From NCBI RefSeq assembly GCF_947654275.1, contig NZ_CANTJS010000007.1:1-64000 (forward strand): DNA of 64,000 bases, written 5' to 3'. The DNA is from an uncultured Oscillibacter sp. Its GTDB lineage: Bacteria; Bacillota; Clostridia; Oscillospirales; Oscillospiraceae. Made by a program: the position numbers and the translations under genes. The notes under the pieces are model-generated. The model ran no database searches and was not told the DNA's origin. It was given only the letters and a program-made list of their open reading frames with translations. Position 1 is the stretch's first letter. Each line of letters opens with the position of its first letter. Positions 8,146 through 56,228 of this stretch are shown piece after piece.

Positions 8146-9845
8146 GCTTGTTCCTCCTCCCGCCGGGCGGGCAGCAGGGCCGTCACCGCGGCGCCTCTGC
8201 CGCCGGGTCCCGCTGCCAGGTACAGGCCGCAGTCCCCGCCGTAGTGCTTTGTCAGGATTGTGTCCACGTTGTAAAGACCCAGGTGCTTGCGCTCCTCTCC
8301 GCCGGGCCGGCGGTACCGGCCTGAGGCCATGTCCGGGGGCAGACCCCGGCCGTTGTCCGTGACGGTGATTTCCAGCATCCCCGCCGTCTCCCGGGCCGTC
8401 ACCGCCACCACGCCGTCCTCCACGCCGTCCAGCCCGTGGAGGATGGCGTTTTCCACAATGGGCTGGAGAATCATCTTGGGAACCAGGCAGTCCTCCAGGT
8501 CCCGGGGCAGCTCCAGTTCGAAGGAGAAGGCCCCGGACATGCGGATGCGCTGGATTTCGATGTAGCGCCGGAGAATCGCCGCCTCCCGCCGCAGGGAGAC
8601 GAACTCGTCCGGCGAGATGCAAAAGCGCAGGATGTCCGCCAGATCCGTGGACATCAGGGCCACCTGGGGCACCTTGTTGATTTTGCTGATCCACTTCATG
8701 GTGTCCAGGGTATTGCAGAGAAAGTGGGGATTCAGCTGGGCCTGAAGCATCCGGATCTGGGCCTCGTTCAGCTCCCGCTGGTTGTCAATCAGGGCCTCCC
8801 GGTTCTGCTTCAGGGCGGAGACCATGCCGTTGAACCGCCGGGCCAGCTGGCCCAGCTCGTCGTCCCGCTCCGCCGGGACGGACACGTCCAGGTTGTCCCG
8901 CTCCACCTCGCCGATAACCCGGTGCAGCCGCTGGATGGGCCGGAACATCTGGCGGCTGAGCTTCCAGCTCATGAGGATGGAGATAGCCACGCAGATCACC
9001 GCGCAGCCGAGGCTGACGGTGTACAAAAGCCGCCGGGTGGCCCGGGTAAACACCTGGGGCTGCTGGAGCACCAGCCAGAGCCCGCTGGCGGCATGATGGG
9101 CCTGGGCGTACAAAAAGGCCTCCGAGTCCCCCTCCAGACTCTGGCCCGCCAGCAGGCGGCTCCGCAGCCGGGGGGCCAGCTCCTCCGCCAGAGAGGGCTG
9201 CTCGCAGTACACCGGACGCCAGTACCGGCTGAGGAGAAGCAGGTCGCTCTGAGCGCCGTGGGTCCCCGCCAGCAGCTGCCGGAAATGGGAATCGTACAGA
9301 CTGACCAGCAGATAGCCGGCGGGGCGGCCCCGCCCGTCCGCCAGCAGGACGGCCCCCTGGAGCAGGGGAGAGGCGGCGTCCGTCACGTCCTCGCAGGCCG
9401 TGAAGACCGGGGGCTCTCCCGGCCCGGCGGCGGCGAAGAGCGCGCCCCAGTCCGTGGGCAGACGCTCCGCCTGGGGAATCTGACGGGTGGAGTACCGCCA
9501 GAGGCCCTGAAGATCATAGAGGTCGAAGCTGGCCCAGCTCCGGGCCTGGGCGGTGGCGCTGAAGAGCTCGTTGTAAACCAGGGTGTCCTCCACGCCGCCG
9601 CCGGCCAGCGCGCCGGCGATGATGGGGTTTCCCTGGAGGCGGGCCGCGGTCTGGGCGAAGGCGTCAAAGGCGGCGTCCAGAGCCTGGGCCGCCGTCTCCA
9701 GACGCTCCTCCATGCCCCGGCGGGCCTCGTTGGTCATCCGCAGGCGGAAGATTTGCAGCAGCATGGCGGAGCACAGCAGCAGGGGCACCAGGGACGCCAC
9801 CAGAAAGCCCCAGAACAGCCGGGTCTGAAAGGAATGCCGTTTCAT
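8139..9845 (-). CDS. Sensor histidine kinase, LytS/YesM type
   Basis: A 568-residue membrane kinase. TM1 is near residues 10-30, a roughly 240-residue extracellular sensor follows, TM2 is near 275-295 (VSLGCAVICVAISILMSW) and then HAMP. The His_kinase box is NPHFLCNTLDTMKW and the ATPase N-box is QPIVENAILHG. It overlaps the upstream binding-protein gene by 4 bp and the regulator gene by 7 bp, so the three are co-translated. The extracellular region probably reads the state of the co-encoded binding protein. Confidence 0.92.
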   Translation of the reverse strand: MKRHSFQTRLFWGFLVASLVPLLLCSAMLLQIFRLRMTNEARRGMEERLETAAQALDAAFDAFAQTAARLQGNPIIAGALAGGGVEDTLVYNELFSATAQARSWASFDLYDLQGLWRYSTRQIPQAERLPTDWGALFAAAGPGEPPVFTACEDVTDAASPLLQGAVLLADGRGRPAGYLLVSLYDSHFRQLLAGTHGAQSDLLLLSRYWRPVYCEQPSLAEELAPRLRSRLLAGQSLEGDSEAFLYAQAHHAASGLWLVLQQPQVFTRATRRLLYTVSLGCAVICVAISILMSWKLSRQMFRPIQRLHRVIGEVERDNLDVSVPAERDDELGQLARRFNGMVSALKQNREALIDNQRELNEAQIRMLQAQLNPHFLCNTLDTMKWISKINKVPQVALMSTDLADILRFCISPDEFVSLRREAAILRRYIEIQRIRMSGAFSFELELPRDLEDCLVPKMILQPIVENAILHGLDGVEDGVVAVTARETAGMLEITVTDNGRGLPPDMASGRYRRPGGEERKHLGLYNVDTILTKHYGGDCGLYLAAGPGGRGAAVTALLPARREEEQAC

Positions 9846-20189: not shown

Positions 20190-20450
20190 GACAGCCGGAA
20201 AGAAAACACCCCCGGCCAAACCGGCCAGGGGCGTCAATCAAAAACGCGGTACCACCCTGTTCAGCCGCCGGGGAAACGGTGGCGGCCCTCATGGCCCGGT
20301 AACGGGGGCAGGCCGTTCCGCCCTACTGCCGGTTCAGGCGGGAGACTCCGGGACCAGTCATCCACGGACTTCCCCCGCCGGCTCGCAGCGTCCGCCGGCT
20401 CTCTGAGGGCGGGAAGGCCCGTCTTTTTTCCCTTCATCGTCTTTCAACAG
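20190..20450 (-). promoter_or_regulatory. T-box leader, leucine-type, upstream of leuS
   Basis: Read on the minus strand, the leader has a distal stem-I arm (AGAGAGCCGGC...GCTGCGAGCCGGC) and a specifier region GATGACTGGTCCCGGAG. Then comes the antiterminator box GGTGGTACCGCG (20256-20245) and a terminator CCCCTGGCC...GGCCGGGG with TGTTTTCTTT (about 20231-20192). The proposed specifier is CUG, a Leu codon (20357-20355); the leuC leader has the same ACTGG context. Uncharged tRNA-Leu would favour readthrough into the DUF2500-like gene and leuS. Confidence 0.92.
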
Positions 20451-32924: not shown

Positions 32925-33230
32925 ATCGACCCACAAGAGCATATGACAGAAATACGATGACAGGGAAAAAGTCTTTTCGGGACGTTTCAGAGAGCTGCCG
33001 GGCGCTGCAAGGCAGTACGGAAGGAAAAGACGTCACTGGCCCTTGAGTAGGTTCGCTGAGACCGGCGGCGGTTTAGGCGGAAACGGGTTTCCTCACCGTT
33101 ATCAAAGAGGCGGGATTCGTCCGGCGCGCCGGACTGATGCCGGGAGCGGGCGCATAGACGCCAATGAGAGTGGTACCGCGGAAGCTGAGCTTTCGTCTCT
33201 TCAGGGAGAAGAGACGGAGGCTTTTTTGTT
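32925..33230 (+). promoter_or_regulatory. T-box leader, leucine-type, upstream of leuC
   Basis: The distal stem-I arm AGAGAGCTGCCGGGCGCTGCAAGGCAG and the specifier region GTCACTGGCCCTTGAGTAGG are visible. The antiterminator box reads GAGTGGTACCGCGG (about 33169-33182), and the terminator CGTCTCTTC-AGGGA-GAAGAGACG is followed by GAGGCTTTTTTG. The proposed specifier CUG (33036-33038) matches that of the leuS leader. Shortage of charged tRNA-Leu should switch on leucine synthesis. Confidence 0.93.
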
Positions 33231-33301
33231 TCCCCGCGGTCCCGTGAATCCGATATCCTGAATATCCTGATTATTTTCAAAACCTAAGGAGTGTGACAGT
33301 C

Positions 33302-34561
33302 ATGGGAATGACAATGACGCAGAAGATTCTCGCCCATCACGCCGGTCTGGAGTCCGTCCGGGCGGGCCAGCTGATTCAGGCGAAGCTGGACCTGGTGCTG
33401 GGCAACGACATCACCACCCCTGTGGCCATCAACGAGTTTGAGGCCGCCGGATTTGACCGGGTGTTTGACAAGAGCAAAATCGCCCTGGTGATGGACCACT
33501 TTGTGCCCAACAAGGACATCAAGGCCGCCACCCAGTGCATGCAGTGCCGGACCTTTGCCCGCCGCTTCGACATCGACCACTATTTCGACGTGGGCGACAT
33601 GGGCATCGAACACGCCCTGCTGCCGGAAAAGGGCCTGGTGGCTCCCGGCGAGGCCGTCATCGGCGCCGACTCCCACACCTGTACCTACGGCGCCCTGGGC
33701 GCCTTCTCCACCGGCGTGGGCTCCACCGACATGGGCGCGGCCATGGCCGCCGGCGAAACCTGGTTCAAGGTTCCCTCCGCCATTAAGGTCAGCCTCACCG
33801 GCAGTCTCCGGCCCCACGTCTCCGGCAAAGACGTGATTCTCACCCTCATCGGCATGATCGGCGTGGACGGGGCCCGGTATCAGTCCCTGGAGTTCACCGG
33901 CCCGGGCGTTGCCTCCCTCTCCATTTATGACCGGCTGACCATTGCCAACATGGCCATTGAGGCCGGCGGCAAGAACGGCATCTTCCCGGTGGACGAGATT
34001 ACCCGGGCCTATGTGGCGGAACGGGTAAACCGGCCCTGGACCGCCTATGAGGCGGACCCCGACGCCGAGTATGAGCGGACCATTGAGATTGACCTGAGCC
34101 AGGTGGACTGCACCGTGGCCTGGCCCCACCTGCCTGAGAACGCCCACAGCGCCCGGGAGGGCAAGGACATCGCCATCGACCAGATTGTCATCGGCTCCTG
34201 CACCAACGGCCAGCTGCCCGACCTGGCTGCCGCCGCCGCCGTGATGAAGGGAAAGCATCTGGCCAAGGGCGTCCGGGGCATTGTGATTCCCGCCACCATG
34301 AGCGTCTACCGGGCCTGCATGAAGGAGGGCTACGCCGATATCTTTATGGACGCCGGCTGCATCGTCTCCACCCCCACCTGCGGCCCCTGCCTGGGCGGCT
34401 ACATGGGCATCCTGGCCCAGGGCGAGCGCTGTGTCTCCACCACGAACCGCAACTTTGTGGGCCGCATGGGCCACGTGAAGAGCGAGGTCTATCTGGCGTC
34501 CCCCGCCGTGGCCGCCGCCTCCGGCATTGCCGGACACATCGCGCACCCCGATGAAATTTGA
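33302..34561 (+). CDS. leuC: 3-isopropylmalate dehydratase, large subunit
   Basis: Aconitase-superfamily [4Fe-4S] enzyme subunit that isomerises 2- to 3-isopropylmalate in leucine synthesis. It has the substrate/cluster motifs [30 protein letters not shown] and [10 protein letters not shown], with the ligating cysteines. Length (419 aa from the ATG at 33302) fits the short HacA/LeuC2 form found in Clostridia and archaea. The AAGGAG site fits 33302 better than the GTG at 33293. It is the first gene of the T-box-controlled leuCDB operon. Confidence 0.95.
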
Positions 34562-34792
34562 AGACAATTAAGAATTTCTGTGAATTAGGAATGAGGAATG
34601 AGGAGTTAGGAATTTTTCCCGGCTTCGTTACAATTCCTAATTCCTAACTCCTAATTCCTAATTAAAAGAAAGAGTGATTCCAATTAGAAATGAGGAATGA
34701 GGAATTTGAGGTTCCTGATTCAATTCCTAATTCCTAACTCCTAATTCCTAATTTCTAACTCCTAATTCCTGATTTAAACGGAGGTTTATGCT
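34562..34792. repeat. AT-rich GGAAT/ATTCC hairpin array between leuC and leuD
   Basis: Two consecutive hairpins are built from AATTAGGAATGAGGAATGAGGA on the left arm and AATTCCTAATTCCTAACTCC on the right. They fill the space from just after the leuC stop to just before the leuD RBS. The base composition differs sharply from the genes. The same family occurs at 43614, 50435 and 51060. It is non-coding. Confidence 0.85.
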
Positions 34793-35290
34793 ATGAACGT
34801 ACAGGGAACTGTCCATAAATACGGGGACCACGTGGACACCGACGTGATTATCCCCGCCCGCTATCTCAACACCCAGGACCCCAGAGAGCTGGCCGCCCAC
34901 TGCATGGAGGATATCGACAAGGAATTCACCGGCAGAGTGCAGGAGGGCGACATCATGGTGGCCGGGGCTAACTTCGGCTGCGGCTCCTCCCGGGAGCACG
35001 CCCCCGTCGCCATCAAGGCCAGCGGCGTCAGCTGCGTGATTGCCGCCACCTTTGCCCGGATTTTCTACCGCAACGCCATCAACATCGGCTTGGCCATTCT
35101 GGAGTGCCCCGCCGCCAGCGCCGGCATCTCCGCCGGGGACCAGGTATCCGTGGACTTTGACACCGGCGTGATTACCAACCGCACCAAGGGCGAGACCTAT
35201 CAGGCGGAGCCCTTCCCCCCCTTCATCAAGGACATGATTGCCCGGGGCGGCCTCATGGCGTCTCTCAGGGCGAAGAAGGCGGAGGCGTAA
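34793..35290 (+). CDS. leuD: 3-isopropylmalate dehydratase, small subunit
   Basis: The 165-residue swivelling-domain partner of Leu[44 protein letters not shown] and [14 protein letters not shown] are diagnostic. An ACGGAGG site precedes the ATG. It is separated from leuC by the AT-rich repeat array but is 2 bp from leuB, so the three are read as one operon. Confidence 0.95.
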
Positions 35291-42318: not shown

Positions 42319-42347
42319 TTGCTTTAGCGGCGGGAGCGGCGTATGAT
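42319..42347 (+). promoter_or_regulatory. Promoter of alr
   Basis: TTGCTT, a 17-bp spacer and TATGAT, about 90 bp before the alr start. It lies inside the ORF-track extension, which supports the shorter protein. Confidence 0.6.
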
Positions 42348-42438
42348 AGAGTCAGCGCAGATGAGCGCCCGGCGGCTGAAACGGCTTTTTAGTGCCGGCG
42401 CACGCGTACAAAAAATTCATCCGGGAAAGGAAGCTGCG

Positions 42439-43614
42439 ATGAAGGCATTGGAAGACAAGCACTGCTGGGCGGAGATTGACCTGGACGCCCTGCTGCATAA
42501 TTTTTCCCTGGTGCGGCGTCTGGCGGGGGAGACCCCCGTCTGCGCCGTGGTGAAGGCCGACGCCTACGGCCACGGGGACCTGATGGTCTGCCGCGCCCTG
42601 GCAGAGGCCGGAGCGGCCTGGTTTGCCGTGTCCTGTCTGGCGGAGGCGAGACGCCTGCGCCGGGGCGGCGTCCGCCGGCCCATTCTGATTCTGGGCATGA
42701 CCCAGCCCGGCCAGGCGGCGGCCCTGGCGGAGGACCGCATCACCCAGGCCCTGTTCAGCCCGGAGTACGCCCGGGCCCTCTCGGAGGCGGCCCGGGCCGC
42801 CGGGGTGACGGTGGACTGCCACCTGAAGGTGGACACCGGCATGGGCCGCATCGGCTTCGGGGCCCGGGAGGATTTTGAGGGAGCCGTGGAGGGCCTGCGG
42901 GCCTGCCGGGAGCTGCCGGGTCTGTCTGTCTCCGGCATCTTCCAGCACTTTTCGGCGGCGGATTCCCTGGCGGCGGAGGACCGGGCCTATACCGAAGCCC
43001 AGTACGCCCTGTTCCGCCGGGTTCTGGACCGGGTGGCCGGGGATGCGCCGCTGATGGTGCACTGCTGCAACTCGGCGGGGCTGGTGTCCCACCCGGAGTG
43101 GGCCCACGATCTGGTCCGGGCGGGCATCATTCTCTACGGCCAGGACCCCAGCGGGGAACTGCCCCTGCCCGGCCTCCGGCCCGTCATGAGCCTGAAGGCG
43201 GCGGTGAGCCACGTCAAGACCCTTCTGCCCGGGGAGTCCGCCGGATATGGCCGGACCTATACCGCGGAGCGGCCTGTCCGGACGGCTACCCTCTGCTGCG
43301 GCTATGCCGACGGCTATCCCCGGCTGCTGTCCGGCCTGGGCGTGGCCTCCCTCCACGGAAAGCCCGCCCCCATTCTGGGCCGGGTGAGCATGGACCAGGT
43401 GCTGGTGGACGTCACCGAAGCGCCGGAGACCGCCATGGGGGACGAGGCCGTTCTGCTGGGGGCCGGAGGCGGCGACAGCTTCGCCCGGGCGGCGGAAAAG
43501 ATTGGGACCATCTCCTATGAACTCCTCTGCGCCGTGGCCCGAAGGGTGCCGAGGGTCTATCTCCGGGGCGGCGAGGCCGTGGCCGTGGACGACTATCTGG
43601 CGGATGTGAACTGA
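42439..43614 (+). CDS. alr: Alanine racemase
   Basis: A 391-residue fold-III PLP enzyme that makes D-alanine for peptidoglycan. The PLP lysine is in VVKADAYGHG, the catalytic tyrosine in GYGRTY, and the conserved GYADGYPR and MDQVLVDV motifs are present. The ATG at 42439 follows GGAAAGGAAG. The following gene lies behind a GGAAT repeat array, so the pair may be one transcript. Confidence 0.96.
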   Translation: MKALEDKHCWAEIDLDALLHNFSLVRRLAGETPVCAVVKADAYGHGDLMVCRALAEAGAAWFAVSCLAEARRLRRGGVRRPILILGMTQPGQAAALAEDRITQALFSPEYARALSEAARAAGVTVDCHLKVDTGMGRIGFGAREDFEGAVEGLRACRELPGLSVSGIFQHFSAADSLAAEDRAYTEAQYALFRRVLDRVAGDAPLMVHCCNSAGLVSHPEWAHDLVRAGIILYGQDPSGELPLPGLRPVMSLKAAVSHVKTLLPGESAGYGRTYTAERPVRTATLCCGYADGYPRLLSGLGVASLHGKPAPILGRVSMDQVLVDVTEAPETAMGDEAVLLGAGGGDSFARAAEKIGTISYELLCAVARRVPRVYLRGGEAVAVDDYLADVN

Positions 43615-43715
43615 ATTAGGAATTAGGAATGAGGAATTAGGAATGGCTTCTTAATTAGGAATGATTCCGTTCTTTCGGCAATTCCTAACTCCTAACTCCT
43701 AATTCCTAATTTCCG
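43614..43715. repeat. GGAAT/ATTCC hairpin array between alr and the DMT transporter
   Basis: AATTAGGAATTAGGAATGAGGAATTAGGAATGG forms one arm and ATTCCTAACTCCTAACTCCTAATTCCTAATT the other. It begins at the alr stop and ends before the next RBS, as at 34562. Confidence 0.85.
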
Positions 43716-44636: not shown

Positions 44637-45647
44637 ATGAAGGAAGCGCGGAAAAAGCGGATTTTGCTCATCGGCACCGGCGGCACCATTGCCTCGGAGC
44701 TTACGGAGAGCGGCGGCCTGGCCCCGGAGCTGACCACGGAAGAGCTGCTGGCCCGGCTCCCCGCCATCTCGGACATCTGTGAGACGGACTGCCTCCAGCT
44801 GCTGAATCTGGACAGCACCAACATGACCCCGGCCCACTGGCTGGAGATGGTCCGCTGCATCCGGGACCGTTATGAGGCTTACGACGGCTTCGTGCTCACC
44901 CACGGCACCGACACCATGGCCTATACGGCGGCGGCCCTCAGCTATCTGATTCAGGACAGCCCCAAGCCCATCATCCTCACCGGGGCCCAGAAGCCCATCG
45001 GCTTCGACTCCACCGACTCCAAGACCAATCTGATGGACGCCTTCCGCTGCGCCGCCGCGGACCTGCCGGGGGTCTCCATCGTGTTCAACAGCCAGGTGAT
45101 TCTGGGCACCCGGGCCAAGAAAACCCGGTCCAAGAGCTTTCAGGCCTTTTCCAGCATCAACTTTCCCCACCTGGGCATCCTCCGGGACGGGGTGCTGCTG
45201 CGCTACATCCGCCAGGACTGCGGCGGGAGCCCGGTGTTTTACGAGACCCTGGACACAAGGGTGTCCCTGCTGAAGCTGGTCCCCGGCATGGGCCGGGAGC
45301 TGGCGGACTTCCTGCTGGCCCGGAACGACGCCCTGATCATCGAGAGCTTCGGCGTGGGGGGCCTGCCGGAGCACGGCGGTTTCTACGACTGCATCCGGGA
45401 CGCCATGGCGGCGGGGAAAATCATCGTCCTCACCACCCAGGTGGAAAACGAGGGCAGCGACGTGGGGGTGTACCATGTGGGACACGCTCTGAAAAACGAG
45501 CTGGGGGTTCTGGAGGCCTATGACATGACCACCGAGGCGGTGGTGGCGAAGCTGATGTGGATTCTGGGCCGGACGAGGCGCCGGGAGGAGGTGGAACGGC
45601 TGTTTTACACCCCCGTGGCCCGGGACATTCTCTGGCCTGTGGTGTGA
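44637..45647 (+). CDS. Type I L-asparaginase
   Basis: A 336-residue cytoplasmic enzyme hydrolysing asparagine to aspartate and ammonia. The first catalytic Thr lies in LLIGTGGTIASE and the second site in GFVLTHGTDTMAYTA; a SSINFPHLGILRDGV stretch follows. There is no signal peptide, in line with AnsA-type enzymes. An AGAAAGGAAGG site precedes the ATG. It is close behind the DMT gene (46 bp), so co-transcription is likely. Confidence 0.93.
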   Translation: MKEARKKRILLIGTGGTIASELTESGGLAPELTTEELLARLPAISDICETDCLQLLNLDSTNMTPAHWLEMVRCIRDRYEAYDGFVLTHGTDTMAYTAAALSYLIQDSPKPIILTGAQKPIGFDSTDSKTNLMDAFRCAAADLPGVSIVFNSQVILGTRAKKTRSKSFQAFSSINFPHLGILRDGVLLRYIRQDCGGSPVFYETLDTRVSLLKLVPGMGRELADFLLARNDALIIESFGVGGLPEHGGFYDCIRDAMAAGKIIVLTTQVENEGSDVGVYHVGHALKNELGVLEAYDMTTEAVVAKLMWILGRTRRREEVERLFYTPVARDILWPVV

Positions 45648-45992
45648 TACGCATTTCAAATAAAACGATTTCGGTTTATTTGAAACAGAACCGCATTCTG
45701 CATTTCTGTTCTGCGCCGGAATGGCGCAAAACACGTCTCATAAGAATCCAATGCGCCTTTGGCGGTATCAAAAGCTTTTGAATGGAGTCTAATATGAAAG
45801 ACCGCCGGAAAGCCGGCGTATGGCTTGTTTTTCCGGCGGTTTCGTGATATAGTCGACGGGACTGAAGGGCGCGCCTGCTCAGTCCCGGGACGGTAAACTC
45901 CGAGTGAAGGCAGGCAAACCGGCCGCCCTCACAGACCGGCGGCGGACGCCCGGGAAATTTCCGGATTCCGACAGATAAGGAGGTCCTTTTGG
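45648..45992. other. Spacer after asparaginase
   Basis: No gene. It has an AT-rich dyad TTTCAAATAAA/TTTATTTGAAA (45654-45685), a large stem ACCGCCGGAAA...TTTCCGGCGGT (about 45801-45841), and an overlapping promoter. Confidence 0.6.
45825..45853 (+). promoter_or_regulatory. Promoter before the 45993 gene
   Basis: TTGTTT, a 17-bp spacer and TATAGT. Its -35 lies in the right arm of the stem that ends the previous operon. Confidence 0.5.
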
Positions 45993-47163: not shown

Positions 47164-47379
47164 GAGCCTGTTTAAAATCCGGCGGAGTGCCGGATTGGGG
47201 CAGATTTTTTACCCAATGGGCATGTGATATCCGTAAGGCGGCAGAGCCGCCAACGGCTATCCAATTGTCGGGCAAGGCGGTTTGACGCAGGAATCCTGGC
47301 GAATTTCAAGTCAAACCAACGCAGCACCGGCGGAAAAAGATGCCCTGAGACGGCGTTTCGATGGATTTTAATCAGGCTC
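47164..47379. repeat. MITE-like element, copy 2 (216 bp), with nested insert
   Basis: Inverted relative of 30946-31106. The ends are GAGCCTGTTTAAAATCC and GGATTTTAATCAGGCTC, flanked by TAA on both sides (47161-47163 and 47380-47382), a 3-bp target duplication. An extra segment of about 55 bp (about 47211-47267, core GGCGGCAGAGCCGCC) interrupts it and resembles the element at 129-215. Its right end is about 30 bp before the radC start. Confidence 0.85.
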
Positions 47380-47408
47380 TAAGACGCGGCGGTGAAAGGA
47401 GCGAAGGC

Positions 47409-48092: not shown

Positions 48093-48300
48093 CAGTACCC
48101 GCATTCAGGCCGCCCTGCGGATGCCGTCCGGCCTGCAGGGATACGGCAATCTGCCGGTTCTATAGCAAGCGTCAAAATTCCCGACAAACGGGCCGGCCAG
48201 GGGGCCGGTCCCTACAGAGGCGTGTAGGGGCAGCCGCCCCCGGCGGCCCGCTGGCAGCAATGATGAGGGTTGCTATAAGCCTCCAGCGGGGCTGAACCCG
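48093..48300. repeat. Mosaic repeat module after radC
   Basis: Holds GGCGTGTAGGGGCAGCCGCCCCCGGCGGCCCGCTGGCAGCAATGATGAGGGTTGCT, matching 46918-46977. It also has CAAAATTCCCGACAAACGGGCCGGCCAGGGGG, whose reverse complement matches 40646-40677. No gene. Confidence 0.65.
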
Positions 48301-48463: not shown

Positions 48464-50434
48464 ATGCCGAAATTTCAGGTTGTATCCGATTATCAGCCCT
48501 CCGGCGACCAGCCGGAGGCCATTGCCGCTTTGGCGGGGGGCATTGAAAACGGACTGAAGGAGCAGGTTTTGCTGGGCGTCACCGGCTCCGGCAAGACCTT
48601 TACCATGGCAAAGGTCATCGAGGCCGTCCAGCGGCCCACTCTGGTGCTGGCTCACAACAAAACCCTGGCGGCCCAGCTCTGCGCGGAGTTCAAGGAGTTC
48701 TTCCCCAACAACGCCGTGGAGTATTTCGTGTCCTACTATGACTACTACCAGCCCGAGGCCTATATCCCCCACACGGACACCTATATTGCAAAAGACGCCT
48801 CCACCAACGACGAAATCGACCGACTCCGCCTCTCCGCCACCTTCGCCCTGCTGGAACGGCGGGACGTGATTGTGGTGGCCTCTGTCTCCTGTATTTACGG
48901 ACTGGGAGAGCCGGAGGATTTCGCGAAGCTGTCCGTCTCTCTCCGGGTGGGGGCGGAGTGGGAGCGGGACGAGATGCTGCGCCGCCTGGTGGAAATCCGC
49001 TATGAGCGGAACGACGTCGCCTTTGAGCGCAACATGTTCCGGGTCCGGGGGGACACGGTGGAGATATACCCGGCCTATTACAAGGACAGGGCCATCCGGG
49101 TGGAGTTCTTCGGGGACGAGATTGAGCGCATCAGCGAATTCAACCCCCTCACCGGAACCGCCTCGCTGAAGCTGAACCACGCCGTGATCTACCCCGCCAG
49201 CCACTACGTTACCACCAAGGACAAAATGGACAGGGCCATCGGGGAAATCCGGAAGGAGCTGGAGATACAGGTGGAGGGCTTCAACGCCAATAACCAGCTG
49301 GTGGAGGCCCAGCGCATCCGCCAGCGGACGGAGTACGACATGGAGATGATGCAGGAACTGGGCTACTGCTCCGGCATCGAGAACTATTCCCGCATCATCT
49401 CCGACCGGCCCGCCGGGTCCGCGCCCATGACGCTGCTGGACTTCTTCCCTGAGGATTTCGTGCTCTTCGTGGACGAGAGCCACGTCACACTGCCCCAGGT
49501 CCGGGCGATGTACAACGGCGACCACGCCCGGAAGGACGCCCTGGTGAAATACGGCTTCCGCCTCCCCTGCGCCTATGACAACCGCCCCCTGAAATTCGAG
49601 GAGTTCGAGGGCCGCATCGGTCAGGCGGTTTTCGTCTCGGCCACGCCGGGCCCCTATGAGCGGGAGCGGGCGGACCAGGTGGTGGAGCAGGTCATCCGGC
49701 CCACGGGACTGCTGGACCCCAGAGTGGAGGTCCGGCCCGTCACCGGGCAGATTGACGACCTGATAGAGGAGATCAACGCCCGGGCCGCCAGGGACGAACG
49801 GGTGCTGGTGACCACCCTCACCAAGAAAATGGCGGAGGACCTGACGGAGTACTTCAAGAACGCCGGAATCAGGGTCCGGTATATGCACGCGGACGTGGAG
49901 ACCATCCAGCGGATGGAGATTATCCGGGACCTGCGGCTGGGGAAATTTGACGTGCTCATCGGCATCAACCTCCTCCGGGAGGGCCTGGACCTGCCGGAGG
50001 TCAGTCTGGTGGCCGTGCTGGACGCGGACAAGGAGGGCTTCCTCCGGTCCGAGACCTCTCTGATTCAGACCATAGGCCGGGCGGCCCGGAACGCGGAGGG
50101 TCTGGTGGTTCTCTACGCCGATACCATCACCCCCTCCATGCGGGCGGCTATGGACGAGACGGAGCGCCGCCGGGGGATTCAGGACCGCTTTAACCAGGAG
50201 CACGGCATCGTCCCCAAGACCATCATCAAGGGGGTCCGGGAGGTGCTGGAGATTTCCGCCGCCGCCGAGGAGGACACCACCCAGGCCCGTCGGCACAAAA
50301 AGCTGAGCCAGGCGGAGCGGGACGCGGAAATCCGGCGTCTGGAGAAGGAGATGAAGGAGGCCAGCAAGATGCTGGAATTCGAGTACGCGGCGGTGCTGAG
50401 AGACCGGATTATCGAGCTGAGGGGAGAGAAATAG
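48464..50434 (+). CDS. uvrB: Excinuclease ABC subunit B
   Basis: A 656-residue nucleotide-excision-repair helicase-like ATPase. Walker A is [16 protein letters not shown] (about 37-52), the damage-sensing beta-hairpin [21 protein letters not shown], motif [10 protein letters not shown] and the C-terminal UVR motif [21 protein letters not shown]. Length is normal. The promoter carries an SOS box, so damage induction is expected. uvrA lies 5.9 kb downstream in a separate unit. Confidence 0.97.
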
Positions 50435-50690
50435 TTAGGAATGAGGAATTAGGAATGAGGAATTTTCCGAAATTCCCCCAATTCTAACTCCTGATGAGAA
50501 ATGGTCAGGAATGAGAAATTAGGAATGAGGAATTTTCCGAAATTCCCCCAATTCTAACTCCTGATGAGAAATGGTCAGGAATGAGAAATTAGGAATGAGG
50601 AATTAAAAATGAGAAATTTTCCGAAATTCCACCCAATTCCTAATTCCTAACTCCTAACTCCTAATTCCTAATTCCTAATTGAATGAGGTG
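50435..50690. repeat. GGAAT/ATTCC hairpin array with tandem 73-bp-scale units
   Basis: The same family as at 34562. The block GAATTAGGAATGAGGAATTTTCCGAAATTCCCCCAATTCTAACTCCTGATGAGAAATGGTCAGGAATGAGAAATTAGG is repeated almost exactly in tandem, then closes with ATTCCTAACTCCTAACTCC. It runs from the uvrB stop to the next RBS. Confidence 0.88.
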
Positions 50691-50694
50691 TTTT

Positions 50695-51069
50695 ATGAAA
50701 TACGAATGGCTGGACGAATACCTCCTGGCCCTGCCGGGGGCGGAAAAGGACTACAAGCCCGAATGGGGCTGGTTCCGGTACATGCTCCGGGGCAAGCTCT
50801 TTGCCGCGGTCTGCACGCCGGACGAAAAGCACGGCACCTACGGCGGCCACGACCTGGTGAATCTGAAATGCGACCCCGCCCGGGGCGAAATCCTCCGGGC
50901 GGCCCACCCCGAAATTCTGCCGGGGTTCTACTGCGACAAACGGCACTGGATTGCCTGCCTCCTGGACGGGGACCTGCCGGAGGATATCCTCCGGGAGCTC
51001 TGCCGGGAGTCCCACCAGCTGATTTTGAAAAAGCTGCCCAAATACGTACAGAAGGAAATTAGTAATTAG
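50695..51069 (+). CDS. MmcQ/YjbR-family protein
   Basis: A 124-residue cytoplasmic protein. EWGWFRYMLRGKLFAAV, LVNLKCDPARGEILRAAHPEILPGFYCDKRHWIACLLDGDLPEDILRELCRESHQLI is the typical YjbR core, a double-wing DNA-binding-like fold of unclear role. The ATG at 50695 follows GAGGTGTTTT; the ATG at 50683 lies before the RBS. It is flanked on both sides by AT-rich repeat arrays. Confidence 0.87.
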   Translation: MKYEWLDEYLLALPGAEKDYKPEWGWFRYMLRGKLFAAVCTPDEKHGTYGGHDLVNLKCDPARGEILRAAHPEILPGFYCDKRHWIACLLDGDLPEDILRELCRESHQLILKKLPKYVQKEISN

Positions 51070-51150
51070 AAATTAGGAATGAGGAATTGCGGCTCGTTTG
51101 GATAAATTCCTGATTCCTAACGCCTCATTCCTAATTGAGGGAAGTGTTTA
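51057..51150. repeat. GGAAT/ATTCC hairpin array
   Basis: AATTAGAAATTAGGAATGAGGAATTG and AATTCCTGATTCCTAACGCCTCATTCCTAATT form the arms; they overlap the last codons of the YjbR-like gene, so its C terminus (KEISN) is supplied by the repeat. Confidence 0.8.
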
Positions 51151-54344: not shown

Positions 54345-54411
54345 ATCGGGGGGATTCAGGGGGGCGCCCCCCCTGACGGGGATTCCAAAGGGGCTGGCCC
54401 CTTTGGGTCCC
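54345..54411. repeat. 67-bp repeat downstream of XRE copy 1
   Basis: ATCGGGGGGATTCAGGGGGG...CCTGACGGGGATTCCAAAGGGGCTGGCCCCTTTGGG, nearly identical to 59562-59628. It forms two stacked dyads (CAGGGGGG/CCCCCCTG and AAAGGGGCTGGCCCCTTT). Confidence 0.85.
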
Positions 54412-54595
54412 CGCGGCAGCGGCCCTCGCTGGGAGGTGGCCCCCGTGGGAACGGCCCTCACGGGAGTGGTTCCCCACGGCAGCGCCCTCGCTGGGAGGCG
54501 GCCCTCACGGGAGTGAATCCCCGCGGCAGCGGCCCCCCGTGGGAACGGCCCTCACGGGAGTGAACCCCCGCGGCAGCGGCCCCGCAGGTCACTGC
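54405..54595 (+). repeat. Tandem GC-rich repeats
   Basis: Variants of CCCGCGGCAGCGGCCCTCGCTGGGAGG and GGGAACGGCCCTCACGGGAGTG occur three or four times. They continue from the 67-bp repeat to just before the next gene. No coding frame is convincing. Confidence 0.75.
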
Positions 54596-55993: not shown

Positions 55994-56215
55994 GGCATCC
56001 ATGCTGTAAAATGCGCAGGTGGATACTCCCGGAGCAAAGGGAGTGTCCAAAGCGAAAATTTGATGCAGGAGCTTTCCCCAGCACGGCATCCATGCTGTAA
56101 AATGCACAGGTGGATACTCCCGGAGCAAAGGGAGTGTCCAAAGCGAAAATTTGATGCAGGAGCTTTCCCCAGCACGGCATCCATGCCGTAAAATGCGCAG
56201 GTGGACGCTCCCGGA
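55994..56215. repeat. Tandem 91-bp repeats upstream of uvrA
   Basis: GGCATCCATGCTGTAAAATGCGCAGGTGGATACTCCCGGAGCAAAGGGAGTGTCCAAAGCG... repeats with a 91-bp period (starts at 55994, 56085 and 56176), two full units and a part. Each unit contains the dyad ACTCCC-GGAGCAAA-GGGAGT. Single units occur at 46974, 47080 and, inverted, 40528. Confidence 0.88.
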
Positions 56216-56228
56216 ACAAAAAAACCTC

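Follow-up and report, generated by a model that had tools for sequence, protein, structure and literature searches.

Heptad-repeat hairpins in the tight operon gaps of an Oscillibacter genome and their possible exchange with the whole gap

Hairpins built of tandem 7-bp units are concentrated in the tight gaps between operon genes of an uncultured Oscillibacter sp. Two unrelated heptad families use the same site, the occupancy of a gap outlasts the sequence of the heptads that fill it, and the leader of the downstream gene changes with the occupant. We put at about even the chances that these hairpins live as part of the whole stop-to-start operon gap and that this gap is rewritten as one unit.

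Heptad arrays in the window

The window (the entire 64,000-nt stretch analyzed, from contig NZ_CANTJS010000007.1) carries heptad arrays at all four places picked out by the first-pass annotation, each on the forward strand. Two consecutive hairpins (34583-34774) lie between leuC, the gene for the 3-isopropylmalate dehydratase large subunit (33293..34561, +; Pfam Aconitase, 2.3e-101; named leuC by gene order), and leuD (34793..35290, +; Aconitase_C, 9.7e-19). Hairpin 1 (34583..34663) has a 5′ arm of AATTAGG AATGAGG AATGAGG AGTTAGG, a loop and a 3′ arm of (CCTAATT/CCTAACT)n; hairpin 2 (34684..34774) stands in tandem to it and is followed by the leuD leader with its SD sequence (ACGGAGG; 34775..34792, +). 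The second array (43614..43711) separates an alanine racemase gene (42343..43614, +; Pfam Ala_racemase_N/C) from an EamA transporter gene. The third is a composite array in which a 70-bp unit is repeated 2.6 times (50433..50680), placed between uvrB (48464..50434, +; Pfam UvrB domains) and a YjbR-like gene (50695..51069, +; Pfam YjbR, 8.3e-22), and the fourth (51064..51136) separates the YjbR-like gene from the gene that follows it. The first bases of the third array form the stop codon of uvrB, and the fourth supplies the stop codon and last codons of the YjbR-like gene, whose product ends in ...KEISN* here vs ...REILGT* in the sister species.

A typical element is a stem-loop of ~75–100 nt, in which four heptads are followed by a loop of ~16–25 nt and four inverse heptads. 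Heptads of this first family read AATTAGG, with AATGAGG and AGTTAGG as variants. Four heptads is the most frequent arm length on either side, found in 22/35 and 23/35 of the simple hairpins, respectively. At the Rfam gathering score, a search of the window returned only two T-box leaders (32948-33203, +, directly upstream of leuC, and 20224-20446, −) and no family for the heptad elements. GC-rich tandem repeats (31/47 bp; a 91-bp unit repeated 2.5 times) are also present in the window, at 54404-54585 and 55994-56220.

Placement of the arrays in the genome

The pattern AATKAGGAATKAGGAAT matches this genome of 3.05 Mb 125 times and its reversed form does not match at all, which excludes chance. 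Several contigs of this assembly break inside heptad arrays of ~50 nt or more (C3 at its end, C11, C20 and C48 at their starts, C91 at its end); short-read assemblies therefore break in long heptad arrays and undercount them. Contig ends of this kind might be read as signs of an assembly or binning artefact, or of chance low complexity. We find such an origin barely credible, since breaks are what true repeats cause, the elements lie internal to long contigs between intact genes, they are conserved in the independent assembly of the sister species, and the reversed control is empty.

At least 68 arrays were found in 763 kb of this genome, comprising the window and 40 stretches that were chosen because they contain matches, and the comparisons of gap classes were made inside that sample. 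With gene ends taken from a simple codon-usage gene caller written for this analysis, 55 arrays fall in same-strand gaps, 4 in convergent and 2 in divergent gaps, and 7 are at contig edges or unplaced. Of the 61 arrays that can be placed, 55 are thus in same-strand gaps, which account for 58% of the non-coding bases. Counted per kb of residual gap, arrays number 9.88 in tight same-strand gaps (those with at most 60 nt left). Loose same-strand gaps have 0.27, convergent gaps 0.26 and divergent gaps 0.06, so that tight gaps are preferred 37- to 160-fold over the other classes. The median array in a same-strand gap lies 4 nt from the upstream stop codon and 22 nt from the next start codon. The array overlaps the upstream stop codon in 18/55 cases and begins ≤15 nt from it in a further 24. 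Arrays of period 7 occur in 60/433 gaps of ≥35 nt, and those of any other period from 4 to 12 in at most 7; in 628 kb of coding sequence, period-7 arrays were found in only 2 genes.

These data bear on several claims of the first-pass annotation. Placement after a stop codon and ahead of the following RBS holds in the window and genome-wide, and the description of an AT-rich dispersed repeat family is supported in a genome of 62% GC, the copies lying in operon gaps and being almost absent from genes. That the arrays leave genes intact is not exact, as an array supplies stop-codon bases in the 18 overlapping cases just mentioned, including three of the four window arrays. The constant orientation seen in the window is a local effect: genome-wide, 22 elements are forward and 9 reverse where asymmetry is readable, and single-arm arrays divide 10 vs 8. 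A symmetric hairpin looks alike read from either strand.

The other dispersed repeats of this genome served as controls. The six largest families, with 35, 29, 12, 10, 8 and 7 copies, have 1, 2, 0, 0, 0 and 0 copies in tight gaps, respectively, and their distance from stop and start codons typically runs to tens or hundreds of nt. With 0–2 copies per family there, the tight gap is not a default landing place for repeats. Dispersed palindromic repeats of ~105–190 nt, with up to ~40 copies in the sister species, are represented in the window at 47164-47385, 48161-48278 and 45645-45783 and elsewhere at L052:16662-16830 and L045:726-916. They include a MITE-like family, TATAGCAA...TTGCTATA, which also inserts inside heptad elements.

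Only one other family is placed like the first. Its heptads (AGAGTGG/AGAGTGA/AGAGTTG, with inverse arms) have the same architecture and occupy the same site. In a set of 24 genus genomes chosen by first-family status, it was present in 8/10 that have the first family and 0/14 that lack it. Five genomes (G056, G058, G018, the sister species G034, and G045) have both families in one gap, adjacent or nested, sometimes joined there by a third heptad of the AGATAAG type.

A simpler account is neutral insertion followed by purifying selection, with a MITE-like element landing anywhere and surviving only where it is harmless, between stop and RBS. Mobile small repeats are indeed abundant in this genome, and heptads bring stop codons into the frames they enter, so that copies inside genes would be lost. 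However, loose, convergent and long intergenic regions are equally harmless and constitute most of the non-coding DNA, yet carry 37- to 160-fold fewer elements per kb, and the real MITE-like families of this genome are distributed the opposite way. Flank profiles of the 35 hairpins revealed no fixed target motif and no target-site duplication at heptad elements, and the leader is lost when the occupant changes (see below). Neutral insertion is therefore unlikely. The earlier proposal of a repeat family that spreads without harm is correct in that the family is dispersed, but it misses both the tight-gap preference and the exchange of whole gaps, leader included.

Comparison of operon gaps between species

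The sister species (G034) is syntenic with this genome (G000), and flanking genes are mostly 92–98% identical. Of 54 comparable same-strand gaps, 14 have heptads here; 10 of these 14 are also occupied in the sister species vs 0 of the other 40 (Fisher p = 4e-8, with one margin of the table fixed by the choice of loci for their matches in G000). At five gaps the heptad family is not the same in this genome as in the sister species; the genes flanking these gaps are mostly 89–98% identical. Identity of the leader, defined as the last 20 nt before the start codon, is 0.95 both for gaps free of heptads (n = 23) and for those in which the family is shared (n = 7). It falls to 0.15–0.50 where the two species differ in occupant (n = 7), and the median for random pairs is 0.40; this comparison covers one species pair and seven changed gaps, and different choices of start or stop codon could partly explain the exchange of leaders. 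The last 90 nt of the upstream gene are more divergent at changed gaps, a result confounded by shifted gene ends in 3/7.

The window arrays illustrate these outcomes. In the sister species the leuC-leuD gap is filled by a single hairpin of the same heptad family and the leuD leader is conserved, and the uvrB-yjbR gap has one short hairpin, also of the same family. Heptad unit number therefore differs at both loci, with two hairpins vs one at leuC-leuD and 2.6 units vs 1 at uvrB. The gap upstream of the EamA transporter gene contains TATAGCAA...TTGCTATA there, an unrelated insert, and its leader is not that seen here; the gap matching 51064..51136 is without heptads. Where heptads are absent or replaced in the sister species the rest of the gap differs as well, and no clean empty site was found, whereas the flanks of MITE-like inserts are undisturbed on either side in this comparison. 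Rewriting is not constant, since two A-family gaps show little or no difference between the species.

Across the genus the distribution is patchy. The exact first-family pattern was found in a minority of 72 same-genus relatives, with 1 to 62 matches each. In many relatives leuC and leuD are coupled, with a junction of 2–6 nt and the SD sequence inside leuC (GAGGAGGTTTGAACA-ATG), and the gap of others has unrelated hairpin inserts. Patchiness and the short leuC-leuD gap of many relatives indicate that the heptad element is dispensable. At locus L218 (genome G001), the coupled leuC-leuD junction carries a 105-nt insert between two copies of GAGGTTTGA. The duplicated junction therefore supplies both the stop codon and a new SD sequence, and is a possible model for the way in which a coupled junction gains a gap.

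We favor replacement of the whole gap over cut-and-paste because occupancy persists while the family changes and the leader changes along with it. Recombination or repair would replace everything between the end of the upstream gene and the following start codon, slippage would expand and contract heptad numbers, and no transposase would be cutting and pasting the hairpin. Less firmly, we suggest that the transcribed AU-rich stem, having no U-tract, might act as a non-polar spacer between two cistrons. Such a stem might be tolerated, and perhaps favored, where it separates one stop codon from the next ribosome site, with any folding heptad sufficing.

Candidate agents were also searched for. 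The first-pass annotation had suggested looking for a linked RAYT or a mobilizer like a reverse transcriptase, but neither Y1_Tnp nor RVT_1 follows the distribution of the elements. Four genomes that bear elements lack Y1_Tnp (G045, G058, G008 and G048), four that are element-free have it (G007, G044, G047 and G062), and RVT_1 has no match in G000, the genome richest in elements. It is thus very improbable that the hairpins are REP-like elements mobilized by a RAYT/IS200-type transposase, or products of a reverse transcriptase, even though they are palindromic, dispersed and intergenic and have stem mismatches that are conserved between copies (AATGAGG in the 5′ arm, CCTAACT in the 3′ arm), as in hairpins recognized in single-stranded form. 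Loss of the palindrome nuclease SbcCD as a permissive condition was rejected as well, since SbcD scores above cut-off in both G000 and G034.

RNA folding and relation to known heptad repeats

A functional role in mRNA would provide another explanation for the tight-gap preference: an intercistronic hairpin could protect or process operon mRNA or set translational coupling, and selection would keep it in tight gaps. The predicted RNA folds are strong. The five window elements, in coordinate order, fold at −35, −20, −43, −27 and −27 kcal/mol (−35.2 and −20.4 for leuC-leuD hairpins 1 and 2, −43.3 for 43614..43711), with z-scores of −7.0, −1.9, −7.8, −3.0 and −4.3, and the median across 35 simple hairpins is −29.7 kcal/mol. 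Also in favor of this explanation are the operon placement between stop codon and SD sequence and the interchange of unrelated heptads at one gap, as if only shape mattered; transcript stability and translational coupling have been proposed for operon heptad hairpins of cyanobacteria (PMC2670836). The arms, however, pair no better within an element than between elements of the same orientation (permutation p = 0.77 for the F class and p = 0.46 for the R class), the number of heptads in one arm does not correlate with that in the other (rho 0.04), and 18/55 arrays are single-armed, so that a structural role is not supported by covariation. When orientations were mixed, pairing came out worse than random, since the mismatches of F elements are complementary to those of R elements. 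The patchy occurrence in the genus and the 2–6 nt leuC-leuD gap of many relatives also speak against a required mRNA element. From sequence and predicted folding, an RNA role would fit the placement, and we regard a functional mRNA element as a tentative possibility. The hairpins do not have the make-up of an intrinsic terminator, with its GC-rich stem and U-tract: the stems are AU-rich and lack a U-tract, and the SD sequence and start codon of the next operon gene come directly after.

Short tandemly repeated repetitive (STRR) heptamers of heterocystous cyanobacteria were reportedly the subject of work by Jackman and Mulligan in 1995. These hairpin-forming 7-bp repeats are found in hupS-hupL, hoxW and nif intergenic regions, which are variable yet structured between close relatives (PMC2670836). 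The hairpins described here share with them tandem units of exactly 7 bp, dispersed intergenic placement between operon genes and the ability to form hairpins, and are best filed with these cyanobacterial repeats; they differ in having other heptads in another phylum. Here, moreover, the preference for stop-to-SD gaps has been set against that of control repeats, and unrelated families are seen to replace one another across the whole gap, leader included. Among the papers searched by heptad sequence, none described the AATTAGG family.

Enterobacterial REP/BIME elements, associated with RAYT, are palindromic and intergenic, with many copies in operons and 3′ to genes, and can affect mRNA decay. 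The present elements resemble them in being palindromic, intergenic and located in operons, but REPs have no heptad structure, and here Y1_Tnp does not track with the elements and the whole gap is exchanged. With the MITEs of the same genome they have in common many short palindromic copies between genes; unlike them, the MITE-like families sit in loose gaps and insert cleanly with intact flanks.

Two other heptad systems offer partial parallels. The P6b stem of the Nostoc tRNA-Leu(UAA) group I intron is built of Class I (TDNGATT) or Class II (NNTGAGT) heptads (PMC4476775). There, too, heptads pair with complementary heptads, two unrelated classes serve one structure, and the region is repeatedly replaced between close relatives; in contrast, P6b is one locus inside an intron with an obvious fold constraint, whereas here dozens of operon gaps are involved and no covariation is seen. 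TAACTGA direct repeats occur in Beggiatoaceae, Cyanobacteria and Bacteroidetes (PMC4679880). They too are intergenic heptads near start codons or overlapping stop codons, scattered over distant phyla with no known transfer mechanism. They are, however, direct repeats without hairpins, with one fixed heptad mostly in one orientation and usually replacing the SD sequence, while the elements here have paired arms and variable heptads and keep the SD sequence downstream.

First-family heptads extend well beyond the genus. The exact 24-mer AATTAGGAATGAGGAATTAGGAAT was found in at least 119 stretches of the GTDB species set, and the matches listed include Bacteroidota, Bacillota, Acidobacteriota, Hydrogenedentota, Verrucomicrobia and relatives, Campylobacterota and one cyanobacterial MAG contig (L156). 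Most of these sequences are MAGs and may contain binning errors; the title of Algoriphagus sp. A40 (L148) gives a named strain and not a MAG. The single cyanobacterial contig among many phyla is compatible with either descent or convergence. Among the matches listed, 53/84 same-strand cases start ≤15 nt from a stop codon, where 11% of same-strand non-coding bases lie. Many of the arrays continue into other heptads (CTCAATT, ATGAATT, GTTGACA), which suggests a wider heptad class. In other phyla, chains of different heptads are seen at L089, L111, L175, L184 and L202-L205, such as AATTAGG then CTCAATT then ATGAATT, or GTTGACA/GTTGATA.

Gaps between operon genes are usually viewed as short, passive and slowly worn. 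A broader proposal, which we consider doubtful, is that a dedicated process, at work in several bacterial phyla, writes or replaces whole stop-to-start operon gaps with heptad hairpins, independently of heptad sequence; both heptad families would then share genomes and gaps because they are products of this one process. Should the present observations hold in larger samples, known mobile elements would not account for the process that rewrites intercistronic DNA, the translation of operon genes would be directly affected, and the hairpins described here would join cyanobacterial STRRs, the Nostoc trnL P6b stem and Beggiatoaceae TAACTGA repeats in one question.

Among viral contigs, the 21-mer was present in only 7 stretches, and phages are therefore not the main carriers. 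On one phage contig (L203), heptad arrays are located at 447-467 and 8447-8467, one of them set directly between a stop codon and the RBS that follows.
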